Part shown: piece after piece, positions 338 through 9,260 of the stretch
How positions within the stretch are numbered: position 1 is the stretch's first letter
Layout of the letters: each line of letters starts with the position of its first letter
From: Phycisphaerae bacterium
GTDB lineage: Bacteria > Planctomycetota > Phycisphaerae > Tepidisphaerales > Tepidisphaeraceae
Direction of reading: 5' to 3'
DNA length: 9,260 bases
Assembly: GCA_014380825.1 (NCBI GenBank)
Contig: JACMJD010000672.1
Location: 1 to 9,260 of the forward strand
Notes under the pieces: model-generated
Databases searched by the model: none
The model's input: the letters and a program-made list of their open reading frames with translations, nothing else
What the model was told of the DNA's origin: nothing
Made by a program: the position numbers and the translations under genes

Positions 338-436
338 GTTCTTGGTTCTTGAGGATTGGTTATTCGGGCTCGCTTGTCAGATGCCACGTCGTCGGCTACG
401 GCGCACACCAATAACGAATAACCAAGAACCAAGAAC
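338..436. repeat. Heptad-repeat inverted repeat 1 (long loop)
   Basis: The left arm 338-351 (GTTCTTGGTTCTTG) is perfectly complementary to 423-436. A second left segment, 358-366 (GGTTATTCG), is complementary to 415-423. The downstream arm reads as 7-base units ACCAATA, ACGAATA, ACCAAGA, ACCAAGA, ACC (407-437). The upstream arm has the same period, and the 6-7 bases that seem to be a bulge (about 352-357) are close to one extra unit. The central loop is about 48 bases. CTTTT follows the right arm, so weak terminator activity after the DUF1844 gene is possible, but the AU-rich stem and long loop are unlike a classical terminator. Confidence 0.8.
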
Positions 437-438
437 CT

Positions 439-456
439 TTTGCGCATTCGCGCAAA
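439..456. repeat. Small perfect hairpin next to inverted repeat 1
   Basis: TTTGCGC (439-445), loop ATTC, GCGCAAA (450-456) form a perfect 7-base stem with a four-base loop. It starts two bases after the right arm of the larger element. No run of T follows on the + strand, so it is not a clear terminator. It could be part of a compound transcript end after the DUF1844 gene or a protein-binding dyad. Confidence 0.45.
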
Positions 457-636
457 CCTTTCGCGAACATCCGGCGTACAGAAGTTTGTTGTCCACCTCG
501 ACGATCAGATCGATTGAAAAGTGATGAAGTTCACGCTTGCGTTTTGCTAGTTGCGCATTAGTATCCGAAGCGGCCGAGACGACGGGACAGGCGTTTCGGT
601 TCCTGCACATGCGGCCTCGGGTCGACGACCGGGGGT

Positions 637-667
637 TTGACATCGCTGTTTTGTTTTTGACGATAAT
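637..667 (+). promoter_or_regulatory. Weak candidate sigma-70-type promoter upstream of the TPR gene
   Basis: TTGACA at 637-642 is an exact -35 word, and GATAAT at 662-667 matches the -10 word at five of six positions. The 19-base spacer is longer than the usual 16-18. A dyad GGTCG-A-CGACC (620-630) lies just upstream and another (674-696) just downstream, as expected for operators but also possible by chance. GACGATAA (659-666) resembles the -10 of sigma-28 promoters (GCCGATAA), but no matching -35 is present at the right distance. This is the best candidate in the gap and could drive the TPR-FlgN-kinase-activator genes. Confidence 0.25.
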
Positions 668-841
668 GCGTGAGCGTCGACGATGTTTGTCGATGCGAAG
701 TTGTGTGCAGCATCTCACAGTGACGCGCGAAGGATCGAGCGTGAAGGCGTGAGATGAAGTTGGGAGCGTGCGATACACGGAATGGTGTCACACGAGATTC
801 GGGTTGTACGCCGCGGGGTTTTTAATCGCGGCGGGGAAGGC

Positions 842-3193
842 ATGGAAGCCATGGCGTCTCGGCGCGCGAACGCACGTCTTGCTCAACTCTGGCAGTTGCC
901 GCTGTTGCTGTTGTCGCTGGCGCTGTTCGGCTACGCCGCTTACCTGTTCATCGATCCGCAGCCGGGGCTCACGACCGAAGAGCGGATCAACTCAGCCAAA
1001 ACTTATCTCGCCCAGGAACGCCCCGACGCGGCGAACCAGCTCATCCTTCGCATTCTCTCATCAGAAAAGCTGTCGGCCGAGCATCAAGGGGTGCTCTATC
1101 TGCTCAACGCCGAAGCCATCGACATGACGCAGAAGCAGAAGCGCATCGGCGTGCCGCTTAACTACATCAACATCATCGAGCAGACCCGTCGCGCAACCGC
1201 GAACGGTGCGAAGCTCGATTGGCAGGCGCATCGACGTCTGGGCGAGGCATACGAATCGCTCCGCAAGCCGGCCGAGGCGCTGGCGAGTTATCGCAGCGCG
1301 ATGGATCTGGATCCGACGCGCTCGCTGCGATTGCAGCGGAAGGTCATCGATCTCCAGCTCGCGCAAGACGACGCCGCGCCGGCGGAGCATTCGCTGGATG
1401 AGTTTTTGAAAAGCAATCAGCTCACGGATGTGGAGCGGGCCTGGGCGCTCGGGCAGAAGGCGAACATCCTGATCGACCTTGGAAAATTCGCCGACGCCCG
1501 GCGACTGTTGGATCAGGCGCTGAAGCTGTCGACCGACGGAATCGTGCAGGGCGAAGTGAACTATCACCTCGGTTACTGCGCTTACAAGCTGAGCAACTCC
1601 GCCGACGCGGAACGATATCTGCGCGTGTCGCGCGAATTCCTTCGCACGCAACATCCGCTCGATGCGGACGCAGCCTATCTGCTTGGAAAAATCGCCCAGG
1701 AGCGCGGCGACAATTCCATGGCCATCTCGTTCTACGAGATTGTCCTCGTCAGCCACATCGATTCGAAAGTCGCACCCAGCGCGCTGATGGGCCGCGGCGT
1801 TTGCCGGATCGCAAGCGGGCAGGACGATGCCGGGCTAACCGATCTGCATGATCTGGTTGAGCAGATCACGTCGCGCAACAACCGCCAGAAGCTGAAGGAT
1901 CAGGCCCTGATCGCGCTGCAACAGGGCGTGCAGATTCTGACTGGTCGACAAAATCTCACCGGCGCCATCGAACTGCTGGCGTACGAGCAAACGCTGCAAC
2001 CCGATCCGGCCGCCAACTTCTACGCGCGACTGGGCAACGTCTTTGAGAATCGCGCGGAGCAGATCGAGCGATCGATTCCGACGGCTCAGGGAGCCGAGCG
2101 TATCCGCCGCGAGCAGCAGGTGCGCGAATCGCGCACCCGAGCGGGCGATGCGTTCATCGCGTATTCGCGCAAGCTCACGCTCGCCGACGACAAGGGCTAT
2201 GGCGAGGCGATGTGGAAGGGAATCGATCTGTACGATCGCGCCGCCAACGTGCAGTGTGTGATCAGCGCGTTGGATTTATTCGCGAACGAGCGGCCGGAAG
2301 ATCCGCTCACGCCCGATGCACTGTTGCGGCTGGGCGGCGCGTATCAGGCGGCGGGTTTGTTCGATAAGGCGATCGACGCGTTCAGCCGAAACCAGTTCCG
2401 CTACCCGAAGAGTCTCGCGGCCAGCAAGTCGGCGGTGCCGCTGGCGCAGGCGTATATCGCAAAGGGGCCCGAGGCGTTCGCCAAGGCGGAATCGGTGCTG
2501 ATCGGCGTGGTCGAGGACAACCCGCTCGTCACGCCCGAAGCGGAAGAATTCCGCCAGGCGCTGTTCGAACTGGCCCAGTTGTATTACCGCACGACCCGCT
2601 ACGAAGAAGCGGTGGCGCGGCTGGAAGAATTCACGCAGCGTTACAAAAACGACGACCGCATGGGCCAGTTGTTGTTCCTGATGGCGGACAGCTATCGCAA
2701 GAGCGCGTCGACGCTTGATGTGCGATTGGCGTCGGCGGAAATCGGGCCGGGCGCGGGCGCGATCGACATTGTCGCAGCGGCGGCGGCCAAGCGCGATCGG
2801 TTGCTCAAGGCGCGTGGGCTCTACGATCAGGTCGTCGAGCTGTACAAGAATAAGCAGCCAATTGGGTCGATCGATCAGCTTTACTTCAAGCTGTCGCACT
2901 TCTATCGCGCCGACTGTCTGTACGACCTCGGTGACTACGCCGACGCCGTCAAACTCTACGACACGGCGATCTTCCGCTACCAGGAAGATCCCTCCGCGCT
3001 GGCGGCGTATGTGCAGATCGTAAACGCATACTGCGCGCTCGGCCGGATTCAGGAAGCGAAGACCGCGAACGAACGCGCGAAGCTGATGCTGGGCCGCATT
3101 CCGCAGGAAGCGTTTAAGGATGGCACGTTCGCGATGCCAAAAGAGTACTACGCGCAGTGGCTGAAGTGGACGAGCGAGTCAGGCTTGTGGTGA
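842..3193 (+). CDS. Membrane-anchored tetratricopeptide repeat protein
   Basis: The product is 783 residues from ATG 842. A short basic N-terminus (MEAMASRRANARLAQLWQ) is followed by one hydrophobic segment at about residues 19-37 (LPLLLLSLALFGYAAYLFI), consistent with a signal anchor that leaves the rest outside the cytoplasm. The remainder is helical and rich in TPR-like units. The clearest is at about 127-160 (HRRLGEAYESLRKPAEALAS, then YRSAMDLDP); others are near 199-230, 276-305, 492-525, 568-601, 683-715 and 720-750. No catalytic motif is visible. The start is uncertain: the frame is open from ATG 782, and ATG 851 is also possible. GGGGAAGG (833-840) and the basic-then-hydrophobic layout favour 842 or 851. 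It lies 120 bases upstream of the FlgN-like gene on the same strand. TPR proteins mediate protein-protein contacts; an envelope scaffold for the flagellar motor is my inference. Other candidates are a general periplasmic TPR protein or a secretion-linked scaffold. Confidence 0.85.
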   Translation: MEAMASRRANARLAQLWQLPLLLLSLALFGYAAYLFIDPQPGLTTEERINSAKTYLAQERPDAANQLILRILSSEKLSAEHQGVLYLLNAEAIDMTQKQKRIGVPLNYINIIEQTRRATANGAKLDWQAHRRLGEAYESLRKPAEALASYRSAMDLDPTRSLRLQRKVIDLQLAQDDAAPAEHSLDEFLKSNQLTDVERAWALGQKANILIDLGKFADARRLLDQALKLSTDGIVQGEVNYHLGYCAYKLSNSADAERYLRVSREFLRTQHPLDADAAYLLGKIAQERGDNSMAISFYEIVLVSHIDSKVAPSALMGRGVCRIASGQDDAGLTDLHDLVEQITSRNNRQKLKDQALIALQQGVQILTGRQNLTGAIELLAYEQTLQPDPAANFYARLGNVFENRAEQIERSIPTAQGAERIRREQQVRESRTRAGDAFIAYSRKLTLADDKGYGEAMWKGIDLYDRAANVQCVISALDLFANERPEDPLTPDALLRLGGAYQAAGLFDKAIDAFSRNQFRYPKSLAASKSAVPLAQAYIAKGPEAFAKAESVLIGVVEDNPLVTPEAEEFRQALFELAQLYYRTTRYEEAVARLEEFTQRYKNDDRMGQLLFLMADSYRKSASTLDVRLASAEIGPGAGAIDIVAAAAAKRDRLLKARGLYDQVVELYKNKQPIGSIDQLYFKLSHFYRADCLYDLGDYADAVKLYDTAIFRYQEDPSALAAYVQIVNAYCALGRIQEAKTANERAKLMLGRIPQEAFKDGTFAMPKEYYAQWLKWTSESGLW

Positions 3194-3266
3194 GGCCAGG
3201 TAAGAGGAATGGGTGATGATTGCAGCATGTGTCTTGATACTGGGTTGGCTACTTCTATTGCGTTTG

Positions 3267-3287
3267 AACAGCTAACAACTAACGAAC
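3267..3287. repeat. One-armed heptad repeat upstream of the FlgN-like gene
   Basis: Three consecutive 7-base units, AACAGCT (3267), AACAACT (3274) and AACGAAC (3281), are followed by TTTT. They resemble the downstream arms of the inverted repeats elsewhere in this window. No good complementary left arm is present; 3246-3266 keeps only scattered matches, so the element may be decayed or single-armed. It lies in the 120-base gap between the TPR gene and the FlgN-like gene. Confidence 0.5.
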
Positions 3288-3313
3288 TTTTGGCCACAAC
3301 CGAAGCCAGACGA

Positions 3314-3760
3314 ATGACAGCGACTGAAAACGTGATCGACGCCTTGGAAGAGCAAGTTGGCTGCTATCAGCGGCTGGCCAAGCTCGCGCACATTCAGCAT
3401 GAACACATTCAGCAGAGCCAAACCGACGCTCTGCTGGAAGTGCTCAAGAGTCGCCAAGAAGTGCTGGAAGAGATCGGCCGATTGGAGCAAACCATCGCGC
3501 CCGTGAAACGATCGTGGAGCGGATTCGTCGGCACGCTCGAGCAGCCAAATCGCACTCGCGCCGAAGCGCTGGTGGCCGAGGCGACGCAGTTGCTGAAGGA
3601 GATCACCGATTGCGATCGTGATGATGTCCTGGTGCTGCAACAGCGCACGCTCAATCTCGGTAAGCAGATCAATCAGGCAACGGTCGCGAGAAAGATCAAC
3701 ACGAAGTACGCGGCCGCTGCTTATGGGTCGAGCCAGTCACGAATGGATGTGCAGAGATAA
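3314..3760 (+). CDS. flgN: FlgN-like flagellar export chaperone
   Basis: The product is 148 residues from ATG 3314, almost wholly helical with coiled-coil character. A first helix holds EEQVGCYQRLAKLAHIQHEHI, a second DALLEVLKSRQEVLEEIGRLEQ, and a third runs through ATQLLKEITDCDRDDVLVLQQ. The C-terminal tail is basic and Tyr/Ala-rich (INTKYAAAAYGSSQSRMDVQR). This layout is typical of the FlgN family, cytoplasmic chaperones that hold the hook-junction proteins FlgK and FlgL before export. The frame is open upstream to ATG 3209, but those 35 extra residues are encoded across the heptad repeat and look unlike protein, so I place the start at 3314, although no good ribosome binding site precedes it. 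The family is weakly conserved, so the assignment rests on size, helices, tail and flagellar context; a FliT-like or FliJ-like protein is the alternative. Confidence 0.6.
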   Translation: MTATENVIDALEEQVGCYQRLAKLAHIQHEHIQQSQTDALLEVLKSRQEVLEEIGRLEQTIAPVKRSWSGFVGTLEQPNRTRAEALVAEATQLLKEITDCDRDDVLVLQQRTLNLGKQINQATVARKINTKYAAAAYGSSQSRMDVQR

Positions 3761-3817
3761 GTGGCCAGTGGTCAGTGGTCAGCAAAGACCAATCTGACCA
3801 CTAACCACTGACCACTT
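3759..3817. repeat. Heptad-repeat inverted repeat 3, filling the gap between the FlgN-like gene and the kinase
   Basis: The left arm 3759-3782 and right arm 3794-3817 are 24 bases each and complementary at 22 of 24 positions, with an 11-base loop (3783-3793). Left units are AAGTGGC, CAGTGGT, CAGTGGT, CAG; right units are CTG, ACCACTA, ACCACTG, ACCACTT. The left arm starts inside the TAA stop of the upstream gene (3758-3760), and the right arm ends on the base before the kinase ATG (3818). Both mismatches are C against A on the + strand and would be G-U pairs in a transcript of the other strand. No run of T follows, so it is not an ordinary terminator. Confidence 0.9.
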
Positions 3818-4642
3818 ATGAGCCTCGACACTGTCCAATCTGAATCGCCGACGACCCAGCGCATGGAAGAGCTGGGGCGGATCATCATGGCGTACAGCGA
3901 GGTGACGGACAAACTGCAGCAGAGTCACGATCAGTTGAATCGACAAGTGCAACATCTTCGCGGCGAGCTGAGCGAAAAGAACCGCCTGCTGGAACGGAAA
4001 AACCGCCTGGCCGCGCTCGGTGAGATGGCGGCGGGGATGGCGCATGAGATTCGAAATCCGCTGGGCGGCATTCAGTTGTACACGTCGCTGCTGGCGAAGG
4101 ATTTGATCGATCGTCCGCCATCGCATGAGATCGTGCTCAAGATTTCGAATGGCGTGAAGCGGTTGGAATCGATCGTCAGCCAGGTGCTGCAATTTTCGCG
4201 GGACGTTCAGATCAATTCCGCGCCGTGCGACCTCGCCGAGATCGTTCGACAGGCTGTGGAGCTGGCTGCACATGACAATTGCACAGTGACCGGACCGCAA
4301 TCGATGGTGGTGAACATCGATTCGTTGCTGATTGGCCAGTCGATCCTGAATCTCGCGCTGAATGCGATTGAAGCGATGAACCGCGACGGCGAACTGCGGA
4401 TCGAGTTTTCCGCGCCGCCGGTTGGATCGGACGCGAAACAGTTTCACTTGATCGTGCGCGACACGGGGCCGGGGATCGAGCCGGCGGTGATCGATCGGAT
4501 TTTCAATCCGTTTTTTACGACAAAGGATTCGGGGACCGGGCTGGGCCTGTCGATCGTGCATCGCGTAATCGAAGCGCACGATGGCACGATCATGGCGTCG
4601 AATTGCGATGAGGGCGGGGCGAAATTTGAAGTTCGAATCTAA
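3818..4642 (+). CDS. Soluble sensor histidine kinase (FlrB/FleS/NtrB-like)
   Basis: The product is 274 residues with no membrane segment and no recognisable PAS domain. Residues about 30-65 form a predicted coiled coil (DKLQQSHDQLNRQVQHLRGE onward). The phospho-acceptor H box is MAAGMAHEIRNPLGGIQLYT with His76. The catalytic domain has an N box around NLALNAIEAM (residues 178-187), a G1 box DTGPGI (215-220), and an F/G2 region IFNPFFTTKDSGTGLGLSIV (228-247). All key kinase residues are present, so it should autophosphorylate and pass phosphate to the response regulator encoded 28 bases downstream. This class pairs with sigma-54 activators to control flagellar genes (FlrBC in Vibrio, FleSR in Pseudomonas, FlgSR in Campylobacter). 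ATG 3818 directly follows an inverted repeat and has no Shine-Dalgarno sequence; ATG 3863 is a possible internal alternative. The short N-terminus suggests it senses a protein partner in the cytoplasm, which is inference. Confidence 0.9.
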   Translation: MSLDTVQSESPTTQRMEELGRIIMAYSEVTDKLQQSHDQLNRQVQHLRGELSEKNRLLERKNRLAALGEMAAGMAHEIRNPLGGIQLYTSLLAKDLIDRPPSHEIVLKISNGVKRLESIVSQVLQFSRDVQINSAPCDLAEIVRQAVELAAHDNCTVTGPQSMVVNIDSLLIGQSILNLALNAIEAMNRDGELRIEFSAPPVGSDAKQFHLIVRDTGPGIEPAVIDRIFNPFFTTKDSGTGLGLSIVHRVIEAHDGTIMASNCDEGGAKFEVRI

Positions 4643-4670
4643 CGAGAGTCCTTGGGGACGGAGTTGACCT

Positions 4671-6050
4671 ATGGCGAAAATTTTAATTGTTGACGACCAG
4701 GACATGATGCGTGATTCGCTAGCGGCCACGCTGGCGCGCGAGGGCCATGAAATCATCGCGGCAACCGACGGACCGATGGCGGTCTCTCGATTAACTCAAG
4801 GGCGATTCGATCTGCTGATCTCGGATTTGAAAATGCCAAAGATGACCGGCATCGAGCTACTGCAGGAAGCGCGCAAGCTGCGCCCGGACATGCCGGTCGT
4901 ACTGATGACCGCATTCGCCAGCGTGCAGACGGCCGTGGAAGCGATGAAGCTCGGCGCGTACGACTACATCCAGAAACCGTTCGACGGCGAAGAGATCAAG
5001 CATCTGGTTGAGCGCACGCTCGAGCACAGCCGACTGAAGCTGGAAAACCAGGCCCTGCGCAGCATGGCCGAGATGAACTCGCCGCGGCCGCTGGTGGGCA
5101 ACAGCGAGATCATGGGCGATGTGAAAAAGGTGATGGACCAAGTCGCCAAAAGCAATGTGACCGTGCTGATTCGCGGCGAAAGCGGAACGGGCAAGGAAGT
5201 GGTCGCCCGGGCGATCCACGCCGCCAGTGAACGGCGCGATCGGCCGATGCTGGCCGTCAATTGCGCGGCGCTGTCGGAGAGCTTGCTCGAATCGGAATTG
5301 TTTGGTCACGAGAAAGGCGCGTTCACTGGCGCCGATCGTCTTCGTCGCGGGCGATTCGAATTGGCCGACGGTGGGACCCTGCTGCTGGACGAGATCAGCG
5401 AGATCGCACCCGGCTTGCAAGCGAAATTGCTTCGCGTGTTGCAGGAGAATGCATTCGAGCGAGTCGGCAGCTCACTCACGCAGCAGGTCGATGTGCGCGT
5501 GATCGCCACGACCAACCGCGATCTGGAGACGGCCGTCGAAGAAGGAAAATTCCGTGGCGATCTGCTGTACCGATTGAATGTCGTCCCGATCGAGCTGCCG
5601 CCGTTGCGTCAGCGGGCCGAAGATATTCCGGAGCTGGTCAAACATTTCCTTCATGCGATCTCAAAACGCGAAAAATCGGTCTTCCGGCATATCGAGCCTG
5701 AAGCGATCCGGATCATGCAGCGATATCCGTGGCCGGGAAATGTGCGCGAACTTCAGAACATCGTCGAGCGCGCGTCGGTACTGGAGATGGCGGAGGGCGT
5801 GATTCGCGCCGACACGATCGAACCGTGGCTGCGCCGCAACACCGACATGGTCGGCGCGGTCGGCGGCGCGGTCGAAACGCTCGCCGGCAAACCGCTGGCG
5901 GATATCGAAAAGCAGGTGATCCTGCGCACGCTCGTCCAGTTCCGCGGCCATCGCCTGAAGACCGCCAGCGCGCTGGGCATCGGCGTGCGGACGCTCGGGA
6001 TGAAGATCAAGAAGTGGAAAGAAGAAGGCGTGCCGATCGAGGCGGCGTAA
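4671..6050 (+). CDS. Sigma-54-dependent response regulator (FlrC/FleR/NtrC-like)
   Basis: The product is 459 residues with the full three-domain layout. The receiver domain (about 1-120) has the acidic pair D8-D9, phospho-acceptor D52 in LLISDLKMPKMTG, T80 and K102. The AAA+ domain (about 139-385) has Walker A GESGTGKE (169-176), the sigma-54 contact loop GAFTGA (216-221), Walker B LLLDE (237-241), and the arginine-bearing stretches LRQRAEDIP and WPGNVRELQN. The C-terminal Fis-type helix-turn-helix is at about 427-449 (HRLKTASALGIGVRTLGMKI). With these motifs intact it should use ATP hydrolysis to open sigma-54 promoters when phosphorylated by the kinase just upstream. A ribosome binding site GGAG (4660-4663) lies seven bases before the ATG. 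The structural genes that follow, starting with flgB, are the obvious targets, which is inferred from position. The exact orthology among NtrC-family flagellar regulators cannot be settled by eye. Confidence 0.93.
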   Translation: MAKILIVDDQDMMRDSLAATLAREGHEIIAATDGPMAVSRLTQGRFDLLISDLKMPKMTGIELLQEARKLRPDMPVVLMTAFASVQTAVEAMKLGAYDYIQKPFDGEEIKHLVERTLEHSRLKLENQALRSMAEMNSPRPLVGNSEIMGDVKKVMDQVAKSNVTVLIRGESGTGKEVVARAIHAASERRDRPMLAVNCAALSESLLESELFGHEKGAFTGADRLRRGRFELADGGTLLLDEISEIAPGLQAKLLRVLQENAFERVGSSLTQQVDVRVIATTNRDLETAVEEGKFRGDLLYRLNVVPIELPPLRQRAEDIPELVKHFLHAISKREKSVFRHIEPEAIRIMQRYPWPGNVRELQNIVERASVLEMAEGVIRADTIEPWLRRNTDMVGAVGGAVETLAGKPLADIEKQVILRTLVQFRGHRLKTASALGIGVRTLGMKIKKWKEEGVPIEAA

Positions 6051-6066
6051 GTGCATTCGCAGAACC

Positions 6067-6087
6067 TGCGCTCGTCGCGCACTTTTT
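6067..6087 (+). terminator. Candidate intrinsic terminator after the sigma-54 activator gene
   Basis: TGCGC (6067-6071), loop TCGTC, GCGCA (6077-6081) form a short GC-rich stem followed by CTTTTT (6082-6087). It begins 17 bases after the activator stop codon. An overlapping alternative hairpin, CGCAG-AAC-CTGCG (6058-6070), shares the left side and would exclude it. The five-base stem is short, so termination may be partial. Confidence 0.4.
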
Positions 6088-6133
6088 GCCAATCGCTCGA
6101 GGGACATTCGCGACATGTCAGCACGTTTTACGA

Positions 6134-6148
6134 TGGCATCGTTTTTGA
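6134..6148 (+). promoter_or_regulatory. Candidate sigma-54 (-24/-12) promoter upstream of flgB
   Basis: TGGCATC-GTTT-TTGA matches the sigma-54 consensus TGGCACG-N4-TTGC at 12 of 15 positions counting the free spacer. It keeps the near-invariant GG with correct spacing but has A where the -12 C should be. A sigma-54 activator is encoded immediately upstream, which supports it. Against it: the start point would fall about four bases before the flgB ATG (6164), and the -24 part lies in a perfect dyad, ACGATG-G-CATCGT (6130-6142), which could instead be an operator. A GACATGTC palindrome at 6112-6119 could be an activator site. Confidence 0.35.
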
Positions 6149-6163
6149 CTTAGGTACTCGCCA

Positions 6164-6565
6164 ATGTTTATCGATCGTCTGTTAAGCGGTGGCAACGGGC
6201 CGGTGATTGAGGCGTCGGTGCGCTTTGCGGCGGCGCGGCATCGGATACTGACCGAGAACATCGCGAACGTCGATACGCCCGGATACATCCATCGCGATCT
6301 TTCGCAGGAAAAATTTCAGGTGCGGCTGTCCGAGCGCGTCGAACGGCGAAAATCATTGTCGGATGGCACGACGCGCTTCGACGACTTGGGCGGCGAGATC
6401 GAAAATGAGACCTCCGGCGTCCTGTTTCACGACGGGAATAACCGGTCGATGGAGCAGTTGATGAGCGACAGCGCTAAGAACGCGCTGTTTCACAACATGA
6501 TGCTCGAGATGCTGAGAAAACAATTTGGGACGATAGAGTTGGCGTTGAAGGAACGGGTGGGATGA
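6164..6565 (+). CDS. flgB: Flagellar basal-body proximal rod protein FlgB
   Basis: The product is 133 residues, close to the usual length of about 135-140. The N-terminal rod signature is clear: a helix with AARHRILTENIANVDTPGYI (about residues 23-42), containing the NIANVDTPGY motif shared by rod and hook proteins. The C-terminus forms the partner helix (LMSDSAKNALFHNMMLEMLR then KQFGTIELALKE). The mid-region is rich in charged residues and is typically variable. FlgB is exported by the flagellar type III apparatus and builds the proximal rod in the periplasm together with FlgC and FliE. No strong ribosome binding site precedes ATG 6164; TAGG (6151-6154) is the nearest purine-rich word. It is the first of the structural genes here and follows a gap with terminator and promoter candidates, so it probably heads its own transcription unit. 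Confidence 0.95.
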   Translation: MFIDRLLSGGNGPVIEASVRFAAARHRILTENIANVDTPGYIHRDLSQEKFQVRLSERVERRKSLSDGTTRFDDLGGEIENETSGVLFHDGNNRSMEQLMSDSAKNALFHNMMLEMLRKQFGTIELALKERVG

Positions 6566-6597
6566 CGAGTAAGAGTACGAGTAAGAATAACGGGTAA
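6566..6597. repeat. Short tandem repeat filling the flgB-flgC gap
   Basis: Directly after the flgB stop codon, the gap reads CGAGTA, AGAGTA, CGAGTA, AGAATA, ACGGGTA (6566-6596), a degenerate six-base repeat with a stronger 12-base period. It takes up nearly the whole 36-base gap, leaving only a few bases before the flgC ATG at 6602. There is no inverted arm. It contains TAA words at 6570, 6582, 6588 and 6595. No Shine-Dalgarno sequence for flgC is visible unless the AAGA words serve. Confidence 0.6.
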
Positions 6598-6601
6598 TTG
6601 C

Positions 6602-7006
6602 ATGTTTGATTCACTTGAGACCAGCGCCAGTGCCTTGATGGCCCAGCGCGTCCGCATGGATACGATCGCGGGAAACGTTGCGAACCTGAACACCACGCGC
6701 AATGAGAACGGCGAGCTGTCGCCATATCGTCGGCGGTTCGTGGTGTTTGCAAACGGATCCAATCCCGGGAACACGCACGCGGGCGTACATGTTCACGCGG
6801 TCGAACAGGATCGCGCGCCTTTCAGAAAAGTTTTCGATCCGGGCAACCGTGATGCGGGCCCGGATGGTTACGTCGAATATCCGAATGTCGACCTGGCCAT
6901 CGAACAAGTGAACATGCTCGAAGCATCACGAGCGTACGAAGCAAACGTCACGATGATGGAAACGACGAAGGCGATGATTAACGCGACCCTGCGACTCATC
7001 GCTTAA
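6602..7006 (+). CDS. flgC: Flagellar basal-body proximal rod protein FlgC
   Basis: The product is 134 residues, equal to the usual length. The N-terminus has the rod-protein helix SASALMAQRVRMDTIAGNVA with the NVANLNTTRN motif (about residues 25-34). The C-terminus carries the diagnostic FlgC stretch VDLAIEQVNMLEASRAYEAN, followed by a METTKAMINATLRLI helix. The central part (SPYRRRFVVF, then GVHVHAVEQD, YVEYPNVDL) is the conserved beta region. FlgC is exported and polymerises in the proximal rod with FlgB. The start at 6602 follows a short tandem repeat and has no clear ribosome binding site, so translation may be coupled to flgB. Its TAA lies only 12 bases before fliE, which indicates one operon. 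Confidence 0.96.
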   Translation: MFDSLETSASALMAQRVRMDTIAGNVANLNTTRNENGELSPYRRRFVVFANGSNPGNTHAGVHVHAVEQDRAPFRKVFDPGNRDAGPDGYVEYPNVDLAIEQVNMLEASRAYEANVTMMETTKAMINATLRLIA

Positions 7007-7018
7007 CGAGTAAACAAC

Positions 7019-7321
7019 ATGATCGACGGCATTTCAAACATCTCAAAACTCACCGGCGTGGGAAATACGCCCGGCGTGAAAGGGACCGGCGAAGCTGGAG
7101 GATCCAGCTTTTCCGATGTGCTGAAGGACAGCATCGACGAAGTGTCGAAGCTTCAGCAGGATGCCAGCCAGGCCGTTTCGGATCTGGCGACCGGGAAGAC
7201 CGAAGACGTGACCGGCGTGATGAGCGCGATGGAGAAATCCGATATCGCGTTCAAAACTCTGCTCTCGATTCGTGCGAAGCTGATGGACGCGTACGAAGAG
7301 ATCAAGAGCATGCCGATCTGA
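7019..7321 (+). CDS. fliE: Flagellar hook-basal body complex protein FliE
   Basis: The product is 100 residues; the family is typically about 100-110. The N-terminus is a flexible Gly/Thr-rich stretch. The helical part begins with SSFSDVLKDSIDEVSKLQQD (about 29-48) and runs through ASQAVSDLATG. The C-terminal helix VMSAMEKSDIAFKTLLSIRA (about 68-87) ends with KLMDAYEEIKSMPI and is the most diagnostic part of FliE (SMEKADLSFQTMLQVRNKLV-like in other bacteria). FliE links the MS ring to the proximal rod and is exported early. It sits 12 bases after flgC and before fliF, the standard order. No strong ribosome binding site precedes ATG 7019. Confidence 0.95.
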   Translation: MIDGISNISKLTGVGNTPGVKGTGEAGGSSFSDVLKDSIDEVSKLQQDASQAVSDLATGKTEDVTGVMSAMEKSDIAFKTLLSIRAKLMDAYEEIKSMPI

Positions 7322-7323
7322 AC

Positions 7324-7395
7324 GAGTTGCTAGTTGCTGGTTGCTAGTTGCTAGCGGAATTCTGCTAGCAACTAGCAACTAGCAACTCGCAACTC
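7324..7395. repeat. Heptad-repeat inverted repeat 4 between fliE and fliF
   Basis: The arms 7324-7355 and 7364-7395 are 32 bases each and complementary at 30 of 32 positions. The eight-base centre contains the palindrome GAATTC (7357-7362). Left units are GAGTTGC, TAGTTGC, TGGTTGC, TAGTTGC, TAGC; right units are GCTA, GCAACTA, GCAACTA, GCAACTC, GCAACTC. It begins two bases after the fliE stop. TAG words in the right arm at 7366, 7373 and 7380 fall in the three different frames. There is no following T run. Confidence 0.92.
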
Positions 7396-7405
7396 CATGG
7401 AGGCC

Positions 7406-7411
7406 AGGAGG
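7406..7411 (+). promoter_or_regulatory. Strong ribosome binding site of fliF
   Basis: AGGAGG, an exact Shine-Dalgarno sequence, lies eight bases before ATG 7420 and outside the preceding stem. It fixes the fliF start and rules out the nearby out-of-frame ATG at 7397. It is the best ribosome binding site in the window, as expected for a gene that must start translation after a large hairpin. Confidence 0.85.
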
Positions 7412-7419
7412 GCCAAGCC

Positions 7420-9102
7420 ATGGATGTATTGAAGGCACAACTTGCACGGATGCAGCAGCAGCTTTTGCAGCTCAGCGCGAGCCAGAAGATGCTGGCCATG
7501 TCGCTGGTGGCGATCATGGTGCTGACGTTGCTGTTCTGGGGCCGCTACGCGAGCACGGCGGACATGGAAGCGGTGCTGGATCAAACGCTGAAGCCGGACG
7601 AAGTCACGCGCATCACCAGCCAGATCCGCAGCCGCGGAATAGAATACCAGCTCGTTGGCGACCGCATCATGGTGCCGGCCGATCGCAAGTTCGACGTGCT
7701 GTCGGAGCTGAGTTATCTCCAGCTCCTTCCGAACGACACGAGCAACACGTACGACGAGATTCTCAAGCGCGTCAATCCCTGGTCAAGCACGGCCGACAAC
7801 GACGCGACGCGTAACCAGGCAAAGTCCGTGCTGCTGTCGCAATTGATCAAGAAATTCCCGGGTGTCTGGTCGGCGGATGTGCTGATCGATCCCACCAACG
7901 AGCGTCGGCTCGGAGGCGGCGGAAAGCAGCCGGTCGCGACGATCCTGATCATTCTTGAGGATCGCACCAAAACGCGCTTCGATCGCAACCTGGTCAATGC
8001 CGCCGCCCAGGCGGTGGTGGGCGCGCAGTCAGGCCTGGCGTTGTCGAACATCAAGGTCGTGATCAACGGCGTGCCGTGTACCGTCAGCGATCGCAACAGC
8101 GGCGTCGGTGGATTTGCCAGCAGCGACGAGATTCTCTCGCAGCAGCAGGAGGCCGAGCAATTCTTTACTCAGAAGATCTCGCAACTGCTGATCTGGATTC
8201 CCGGCGCGATGGTGGCGGTCACGTGCGATGTGAACATCAAGAGCGAGCGTCGCACCGAAGAACTTTACGATCCGAAAGGTATCGCGTCGAAAGAGTCGTC
8301 GTCCGAAAGCGAAACGAATGAGCAGGCATCGCCGCCCGCACCCGGCGGCGAACCCGGTGCAATACCGAACGCGCCGCTGTCGGTCGGGGGCTCGTCCCCA
8401 AGCGGCAGCGGAGCCGCGGCCGGATCAAATCGCAATCGCGAGTCGACCAAGTTTGAAAACCATTTCAGCAAATCGCAGATCGAGTCCTCGACTCCGCCCG
8501 GAAAACCGAAAGCGTTGGCCGCCACGGTTCGACTGCCGCGCAGCTTCTTTGTCGGCGTGTACAAACGATCGAACCCGGACTCGAAATCCGAGCCCGATGA
8601 ACAGGCCGTCGCGCAGCTTGTCGAGAAAGAGCTGCCGAAAATTCGCCGCGACGTGAAGAGCTGCACGTATATCACGAACGACGAGGACATCGTCGTCGAT
8701 ACGTATCCGGATGACCTCCCGCTGCTGAGCGCGGTGGCCACCAGTTCGCTGGCGGCATCGAAGAGCGCCGGTGGTTTCGCGGCGGCGCTGGGCGGTCACT
8801 ACAAGGAGATCGGCATCGGCGTGCTGGCGCTGATCAGCCTGTTCATGGTCTCGTCGATCGTCAAGAAGGGCACGCCCGCGCCGGTGATGGCGGTGGTGAG
8901 CGCACCAACGCAGCCGGAGATGCTGATGGCCGGCGAGGACGTCGCGGGCGAAGCCATGGAAGGCAGCTCGACGCTGGACGGTATGGAACTGGATGACGAC
9001 GCCGTCAAGGCGCAACAAATGGTCGAACAGGTCGCCACGATGGTAAAGGAAAATCCCGACGGCGCGGCAAACCTGGTGAAGCGATGGTTGAATAGAACAT
9101 GA
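7420..9102 (+). CDS. fliF: Flagellar MS-ring protein FliF
   Basis: The product is 560 residues, near the usual 520-570. The first membrane segment is at about residues 23-43 (KMLAMSLVAIMVLTLLFWG). The YscJ/FliF ring-building domains follow, with conserved stretches such as EVTRITSQIRSRGIEYQL, VADR-like DRIMVPADRK, SVLLSQLIKKFPGVWSADVL and VVGAQSGLALSNIKVV. A low-complexity Ser/Gly/Pro/Glu-rich stretch (about 290-362) corresponds to the variable periplasmic loop of the family. The second membrane segment is at about 463-481 (EIGIGVLALISLFMVSSIV). The cytoplasmic tail ends with VATMVKENPDGAANLVKRWL (538-557), the FliG-binding motif. FliF forms the inner-membrane ring that houses the export gate and carries the FliG rotor. 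The strong AGGAGG at 7406-7411 supports the start. fliG follows after 90 bases occupied by another inverted repeat. Confidence 0.96.
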   Translation: MDVLKAQLARMQQQLLQLSASQKMLAMSLVAIMVLTLLFWGRYASTADMEAVLDQTLKPDEVTRITSQIRSRGIEYQLVGDRIMVPADRKFDVLSELSYLQLLPNDTSNTYDEILKRVNPWSSTADNDATRNQAKSVLLSQLIKKFPGVWSADVLIDPTNERRLGGGGKQPVATILIILEDRTKTRFDRNLVNAAAQAVVGAQSGLALSNIKVVINGVPCTVSDRNSGVGGFASSDEILSQQQEAEQFFTQKISQLLIWIPGAMVAVTCDVNIKSERRTEELYDPKGIASKESSSESETNEQASPPAPGGEPGAIPNAPLSVGGSSPSGSGAAAGSNRNRESTKFENHFSKSQIESSTPPGKPKALAATVRLPRSFFVGVYKRSNPDSKSEPDEQAVAQLVEKELPKIRRDVKSCTYITNDEDIVVDTYPDDLPLLSAVATSSLAASKSAGGFAAALGGHYKEIGIGVLALISLFMVSSIVKKGTPAPVMAVVSAPTQPEMLMAGEDVAGEAMEGSSTLDGMELDDDAVKAQQMVEQVATMVKENPDGAANLVKRWLNRT

Positions 9103-9104
9103 AG

Positions 9105-9187
9105 GAGAGGGCAGAGGGCAGAGCGCAGAGGGCAGGAAAGACGCGGATCGCATTTCCTGCCCTCTGTCCTCTAACCTCTGACCTCTA
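9105..9187. repeat. Heptad-repeat inverted repeat 6 between fliF and fliG
   Basis: Two arms of exactly five 7-base units each (9105-9139 and 9153-9187) are complementary at 29 of 35 positions, with a 13-base loop. Left units are GAGAGGG, CAGAGGG, CAGAGCG, CAGAGGG, CAGGAAA; right units are TTTCCTG, CCCTCTG, TCCTCTA, ACCTCTG, ACCTCTA. The inner 14 pairs (9126-9139 with 9153-9166) are perfect. It starts two bases after the fliF stop and ends five bases before the fliG ATG, so it leaves no room for a Shine-Dalgarno sequence. Confidence 0.9.
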
Positions 9188-9192
9188 CAATT

Positions 9193-9260
9193 ATGGCCGA
9201 CATTTCCGGTGTCCGAAAAGCCGCCATTCTACTGCTCACCCTTGAGCAGGATCAGGCGGC
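9193..9260 (+). CDS. fliG: Flagellar motor switch protein FliG, 3'-truncated by the window edge
   Basis: Only the first 22 codons and two further bases are present: MADISGVRKAAILLLTLEQD followed by QA. The pattern (GxxKAAILLLxLxxDxA) is the typical N-terminus of FliG, the rotor protein that binds the FliF tail and interacts with the stator for torque. Its position directly after fliF is the standard order. The ATG lies five bases after an inverted repeat and no Shine-Dalgarno sequence is visible (the preceding bases are ACCTCTACAATT), so translation may depend on coupling to fliF or on an unusual initiation. Confidence 0.88.
   Translation, partial: MADISGVRKAAILLLTLEQDQA

Follow-up and report, generated by a model that had tools for sequence, protein, structure and literature searches.

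In a flagellar region of a Phycisphaerae bacterium (contig JACMJD010000672.1; the whole analysed stretch of 9,260 nucleotides (nt) is called the window), four gaps between genes hold inverted repeats whose arms are tandem 7-base units, or heptamers (Table 1). They represent a genuine class of intergenic hairpins that Phycisphaerae carry at many loci. As an earlier note on this DNA had proposed, the architecture is constant while the unit varies and the arms of each copy track each other. The loop varies as well, and period 7 is far commoner than in shuffled sequence. Units are changed at orthologous gaps, and related arrays are inserted in frame into genes. We favour, at slightly short of even probability, the reading that dispersed heptamer arrays become hairpins by foldback (template-switch) copying and are then homogenised. 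The comparisons rest on relatives and not on the window's own genome: 16 FliF loci, sampled stretches of eight genomes, and further loci (G and L numbers denote genomes and loci). Named FliF relatives of the window include Tepidisphaeraceae and Phycisphaerae.

A class of intergenic heptamer hairpins

Tandem Repeats Finder (TRF) calls period-7 arrays at all four window hairpins, which the earlier note had located exactly or to within a few bases. Our strict scanner finds three inverted pairs of lag-7 arrays in the window, and it finds any such pair in one of 1000 shuffled windows (first-order Markov). It misses the first hairpin, in which the arms match by eye only with one 7-base unit of the left arm skipped, the left arm being one unit the longer. 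Over periods 4 to 15 in the window and the 16 relative loci, the scanner gives 11 inverted pairs at period 7, one at period 5 and no others. Eight of these 16 loci (L006–L008, L001, L002, L011, L015 and L016), which were kept in the totals, have no lag-7 array, so the feature is lineage-specific.

The sampled stretches of five genomes contain 21 period-7 pairs in total (G001 0, G003 6, G004 1, G005 2 and G014 12). The same stretches hold nine pairs at period 8, two at period 5, two at period 6 and one at period 10, and none at periods 9, 11 and 12. One shuffle of each stretch yields no pair at any period; in these relatives, the excess of period-7 inverted repeats over shuffled sequence for which the earlier note had suggested looking is thus present (21 versus 0). 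Period 7 leads, and periods 8 and 10 form a minor class. Every repeat-bearing sampled genome has inverted pairs (1 to 12), and single arms occur too. The lag-7 arrays are intergenic in 20 of 23 cases in G003, 10 of 16 in G004, 10 of 12 in G005 and 45 of 74 in G014. As a separate observation, L046:4123-9996 of G004 has octamer hairpins (AGAGACGA) at intervals of about 1.9 kb, within long open reading frames (ORFs) or in the stretches that separate them, as if a gene-plus-hairpin unit were repeated.

The relation between arms and loops was followed in 21 hairpins with the unit ACTGAGG, taken from 20 G005 stretches that had been picked from earlier word matches, and are not a random sample, with L195 added. 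Their arms are built from 149 units, 96 of which are exactly ACTGAGG and 25 ACTGAGT. Of 210 pairs of loops, by comparison, only two are alike, and 11 of the 21 loops are 21–34 nt long. Since the arms are common and the loops private, the element is not copied whole, nor are the hairpins copies of an ordinary mobile repeat, with which the earlier note had contrasted them. Sixteen loci duplicating others were removed before the counts of mismatches, polarity, unit comparison, fold energy and loop ends. The loop ends are complementary at 5.15 of 10 positions on average (n = 46), a value reached by none of 200 permutations (maximum 4.87); L213 gives an example of pairing that runs into the loop (ACTGAGT-aagaaggcag ... 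ctgccttctt-ACTCAG). Hairpins can also be nested, with GGGTTCA arms inside ACTGAGG arms in L204 and two nested pairs each in L022 and L032 of G003. Single arrays of two units lie side by side at L086 6674-6739. In gap B of G012, a series of unlike units is read by eye in identical order in both arms.

Other dispersed repeats were seen in the same genomes. A hairpin of about 100 bp (cacgcc...gaggccccggat...ggcgtg) occurs at many places in G005 and G012, among them L067:18003-18108, L195 near 400-560 and L187:1002-1099, and several copies stand within heptamer hairpin loops. Further multi-copy repeats of 50-190 bp are common to both genomes (L067:12133-12321 and 19220-19330).

The unit words are reused within genomes. 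AGAAGCC repeats give 188 matches in G014 and none in 27 family mates, and the word family RCTGAGK gives 124 matches in G005 and 32 in G012, overlapping matches counted, with none in G051 or G001 and none for the backward control. The earlier note had described a different unit in each gap, which is true of the window and fails as a rule, as units recur at dozens of loci per genome. Since relatives reuse their units at many loci, the genome of the window most likely uses several words, of which four are seen here. Two words were considered as markers and set aside: AGTTGCT matched 6 of 298 class genomes, yet its backward control matched 5 of 298, and AGAAGCC occurred in one of 28 family genomes, G014 itself.

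Between genera, units are alike on the same strand in 20 cluster pairs, compared with a mean of 10.5 and a maximum of 17 in 300 permutations of unit positions; on the opposite strand the figures are 4 and 4.8. Rotation alignment of the units scores 139.5 against a maximum of 123.3 for shuffled units, which were given fewer restarts; the unit network built with that alignment includes variants from within one genome, and so overstates relatedness. A conserved unit core was rejected, as at the level of genus clusters only CAG exceeds shuffles (7 of 16 versus a maximum of 6) and six other cores do not.

Orthologous gaps and the origin of the second arm

We compared the congeners G005 and G012, in which FliF is 76% identical and shared DNA is mostly 78-90% identical. 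Heptamer or octamer arrays are present in both species in all 12 orthologous gaps, 11 of them by the scanner and one by eye (gap 11, L187/L198, where the G005 array ACTCCGC lies just beyond the scanned slice). By our reading the unit words differ in 10 of the 12 gaps, examples being GCTGGTT/GCTGAGT, ACTGAGG/GCTGAGT, ACGTGAA/AAGTAAA, ATTGCAA/AATGCAA and ACTCAGT/ACTCAGC, and in one gap all three of three units read ACTCAGC in one species and ACTCCGC in the other. The earlier note had proposed comparing related genomes at the same gaps, and these congeners do carry repeats there with changed units. The second arm is degenerate by eye in gaps 1, 6 and 9, and the two G005 arrays of gap 12 do not match one another. 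The FliG-FliH gap (gap 4) has a period-7 hairpin in one species, G005, and a period-8 array in the other. Most of the twelve gaps were found via repeats in one species; among gaps of 30 nt or more that had not been selected by their G012 repeats, six of six carry repeats there, compared with 6 of 19 in the G012 background (chance about 1.4e-3). Positional conservation of the repeats between the two species is likely, not proven. Separately, a large hairpin with ccctctccctcgtactcgggggagaggg arms at L182:3222-3480 of G012 has no counterpart in the orthologous G005 gap.

Repeats in both congeners at the compared gaps would also be expected under selection on RNA structure, with the hairpins acting between cistrons to stabilise mRNA, direct its processing or terminate transcription, only pairing being conserved and the units drifting with compensation. 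The strong folds of the window hairpins and their closeness to stop and start codons agree with such a role, as does the recurrence of a heptamer hairpin or its remains between FliF and FliG in several lineages. In the latter gap, presence of the hairpin (scored by eye in G046, G048 and G056) requires six changes on the FliF tree, at least three of them forced, and it is not clustered on that tree, as 160 of 500 shuffles are as low. The gap measures 13-57 nt in most hairpin-less relatives (L007, L179 and L009 are exceptions or have no data), whereas heptamer arrays or their remains come with gaps of 71-184 nt; because the gap is short without it, the hairpin is an insert and not an ancient core. 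Many relatives lack a hairpin at the same gaps, which speaks against a conserved RNA function. If pairing within the transcript were under selection, the transcribed strand should tolerate G.U mismatches better than A.C ones. Arm mismatches between co-directional genes include 51 of the G.U type and 44 of the A.C type on that strand (p = 0.54; 79 others). Within the power of the count, this lack of G.U bias points to a process at the DNA level. Selection on RNA structure also leaves the period of seven, the words common to many loci and the single arms inside genes unexplained, and we consider it unlikely. The earlier note had offered either selection on structure or copying of one arm onto the other; of these, copying fits better, given the absence of G.U bias and the unit order in gap B of G012.

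The claim that no such repeat lies inside a gene holds for the window and does not extend to its relatives: the sampled stretches of four genomes have 26 lag-7 arrays within called genes, with G014 accounting for 20. These in-gene inserts are mostly single arms. In G014 MutS, the array adds 9+9 residues compared with a solved MutS, and G014 LeuRS has extra residues at both array sites compared with a solved homologue; the array site of G014 PurL lies outside the alignment coverage. All eight in-gene arrays of the AGAAGCC type in G014 read AGAAGCC in sense. A general sense bias was tried and dropped: of all 26 in-gene arrays, 15 are richer in G than in C in sense, 10 are richer in C and one is even.

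The hairpins could alternatively be REPIN/MITE-like non-autonomous elements moved by a transposase such as Y1/RAYT, the arms being recognition ends and the loops decaying fast. The high count of one word per genome in G014 and G005 fits this idea, as do the loop modules common to some copies (L207/L223). Arm polarity is likewise fixed: G outnumbers C on the left arm in 32 of 33 pairs from the strict scan, and of the 65 pairs in the relaxed set 50 show this, 3 the opposite and 12 a tie. Y1_Tnp matches occur in 15 of 16 genomes, but their counts do not follow repeat density as estimated from sampled stretches; repeat-rich G014 has two, and so does G001, whose sample had no period-7 pair. Also against this idea, loops are private within G005, while the sole orthologous loop followed in full (L185/L195) was conserved by eye together with its hairpin. 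We regard such transposition as rather unlikely.

The polarity of the arms also bears on trans-templated addition, in which a telomerase-like enzyme would put heptamers on broken 3' ends and two joined ends would give a G-richer left and a C-richer right arm. The same words around private loops, and the existence of single arms, would follow as well. However, plain intergenic inverted repeats lean likewise (50 versus 33), and once the words are merged to seven classes, six show the polarity, none opposes it and one is tied (Fisher p = 0.08 in comparison with the plain repeats). Polarity was therefore weakened as proof of end-addition, the units of different genera being related as well; given their same-strand likeness, a common ancestry of the words may account for it. 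Reverse transcriptases are present in 9 of 16 genomes and do not track the repeats, and PF00078 was not found in the repeat-bearing G004, G012 and G048, genomes of unstated completeness. Nor would addition in trans account for unlike units whose order is identical in the two arms. We consider it very improbable.

In the foldback reading that we favour, a 7-base word would first spread in short tandem arrays to many loci, both to gene gaps and, as single arms, to genes. A 3' end would then fold back and copy such an array by snap-back synthesis or template switching, giving a hairpin. The second arm being a copy of the first, the loop would be whatever local sequence adjoined. Further copying between the arms, along with slippage by 7 nt at a time, may keep units and arms uniform, by which a changed unit would take over both arms at once. 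Any consequences for mRNA between cistrons would be secondary. In the accessible parts of PMC8794818 and PMC8604942, template switching is a source of hairpins and of homogenisation of inverted-repeat arms; the proposed process is the same, but the cases described there concern RNA genes and yeast proteins and not period-7 arrays. The preference for heptanucleotide repeats has been put down to polymerase slippage, as cited in the portion of PMC4679880 available.

Several results weigh against this foldback reading. First, only four of the 12 orthologous gaps (2, 3, 5 and 8) have inverted pairs that the scanner accepts in G005 and G012 alike; gap 10 is also listed, but its G012 pair reads as two same-strand arrays. 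In a narrower set of gaps (L005/L012 and L067, at least 30 nt, with consecutive orthologous genes on both sides), six have repeats in both species, one in neither and none in a single species, a small number with a Fisher p of 0.14. Within a strain, no variation was seen. In the alignment of the arms, 15 of 16 indels are of 1-2 nt and one is of 7 nt, which disfavours 7-nt slippage between arms. Loops folded alone are only slightly better than their shuffles (mean z -0.53). Some copies share loops (L207/L223 and L208/L211), which means that arms and loop spread together in part of the family. Finally, foldback copying accounts for the second arm and not for one word at dozens of loci, and because that spread is unexplained, a mobile or trans-templated route stays alive.

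Gene map of the window

The window begins with a partial ORF, followed by a TPR protein (782-3193) and FlgN (longest ORF 3209-3760). A histidine kinase (3818-4642) and a sigma-54 response regulator (4671-6050) come next, and then a FlgB-like ORF, which has no Pfam match and is named by position, FlgC, FliE and FliF. Comparison with relatives would place the FliG start at 9193.

Table 1. Heptamer features of the window; fold z is the RNA folding z-score from 100 shuffles each
Feature	Position	Units	Basis
Hairpin after the first (partial) ORF	338..436	GTTCTTG / CCAAGAA mixed with CGAATAA	TRF period 7 at 407-437; fold z -3.3
Hairpin filling the FlgN–histidine-kinase gap	3757..3819	AGTGGTC / ACCACTG	scanner, TRF, fold z -4.9
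FliE-FliF gap hairpin	7323..7395	AGTTGCT / CTAGCAA	TRF, scanner, fold z -8.5
Hairpin filling the FliF-FliG gap	9105..9187	AGAGGGC / CCTCTGA	TRF, relaxed scanner, fold z -5.4
Weak one-armed heptamer piece before FlgN	3267..3287	about AACAGCT AACAACT AACGAACT	by eye; not found by the scanner

The second hairpin overlaps both the FlgN stop codon (3758-3760) and the following ATG (3818). The third starts 3 nt past the FliE stop, and the fourth begins 3 nt past the FliF stop and ends a few nt short of the FliG start. The one-armed relative of the earlier note is weak, with about two units by eye, and it lies within the longest ORF of FlgN. The FlgN Pfam match starts at residue 36 of that ORF, the ATG at 3314, which is probably the FlgN start in place of 3209; the earlier note's placement of the one-armed piece in a gap is therefore probably right. 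A scan of the window against Rfam at the gathering threshold gave no match. Two further stretches were noted. Between FlgB and FlgC, an array at 6566-6600 is short and irregular (acgagtaagagtacgagtaagaataacggg; TRF period 6), and at 7390-7419 a stretch like gccaaggagggct precedes FliF and is conserved in the FliE-FliF gaps of many relatives, perhaps as a ribosome site within a small stem.

Known heptamer repeats and palindromes

The hairpins resemble several known repeats in part. The short tandemly repeated repetitive (STRR) heptamers of heterocystous cyanobacteria are dispersed intergenic direct repeats used for fingerprinting; they share with the planctomycete repeats the form of dispersed intergenic heptamer arrays, and differ in being direct and in not being known as hairpins. 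REP, REPIN and BIME palindromes are high-copy dispersed intergenic hairpins with a primary sequence common to their copies. The planctomycete hairpins are also dispersed, intergenic and high in copy, with fixed arm polarity. Unlike in REPs, however, the arms consist of tandem heptamers whose sequence differs from genome to genome, and sharing extends to the arms and not to the private loops. Eukaryotic foldback elements have inverted ends of short tandem units and variable loops, and are far larger; the planctomycete repeats are without any linked transposase. Rickettsia palindromic elements are in-frame inserts within protein genes.

No description of this hairpin class in planctomycetes was found among the titles and abstract openings of the open-licence literature. 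The earlier note knew of no described family of this hairpin form, which is too strong: in the text available from PMC4476775, the P6b stem of the Nostoc trnL (UAA) group I intron is built of heptamers (class I TDNGATT, class II NNTGAGT). This stem and the TAACTGA arrays described below are the nearest described forms among the sources seen in part. As in the Nostoc P6b-type hairpin, the planctomycete arms are complementary heptamer repeats with a changeable word, and the same source describes two words for one structure, length change by repeat units and word shifts. The rotated class II word, TGAGTNN, fits the hairpin units TGAGTAC, TGAGTCC and TGAGTGC, a comparison by eye that has no chance baseline. 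In the part of that source seen, P6b is one site in a cyanobacterial intron, whereas the planctomycete hairpins occupy hundreds of gene-gap places; those of the window all lie between protein genes and none in a trnL group I intron.

The TAACTGA direct repeats form intergenic heptamer arrays in Beggiatoaceae, cyanobacteria and Bacteroidetes, according to the accessible part of PMC4679880. In that part, 132 of 170 sets point toward a start codon and a few lie within ORFs; related strains vary by 7-nt steps, and the closest relatives sometimes have short gaps without repeats. TCAGTTA, as TAACTGA reads on the opposite strand, is one letter off the planctomycete unit TCAGTTG. The planctomycete arrays share with the STRR and TAACTGA repeats tandem 7-base units, an intergenic position and many loci, and differ from both in that their arrays have an inverted partner. 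As far as the same part of PMC4679880 goes, TAACTGA arrays are direct, with one of 170 sets inverted, one favoured word in that genome and no hairpin, whereas the planctomycetes use several words.

These likenesses also allow a broader idea, which we hold to be quite improbable, that a dedicated bacterial machinery writes heptamers in trans, with the G-richer strand as the growing 3' strand and a word that drifts and takes over a genome; Nostoc P6b and TAACTGA would then be outcrops of it. Such machinery would give the same-strand likeness of units between genera, and shared descent gives that likeness too.

The planctomycete hairpins offer a natural test bed for how palindromes originate and how they are kept perfect, with one word at dozens of loci around private loops, both arms changed jointly in related species, and genes such as MutS invaded in frame. 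They link scattered reports of bacterial heptamer repeats. If foldback copying is true, a mutational process, and not selection on RNA structure, would build many intergenic hairpins, and the prediction of structured RNA in such genomes would have to allow for it.

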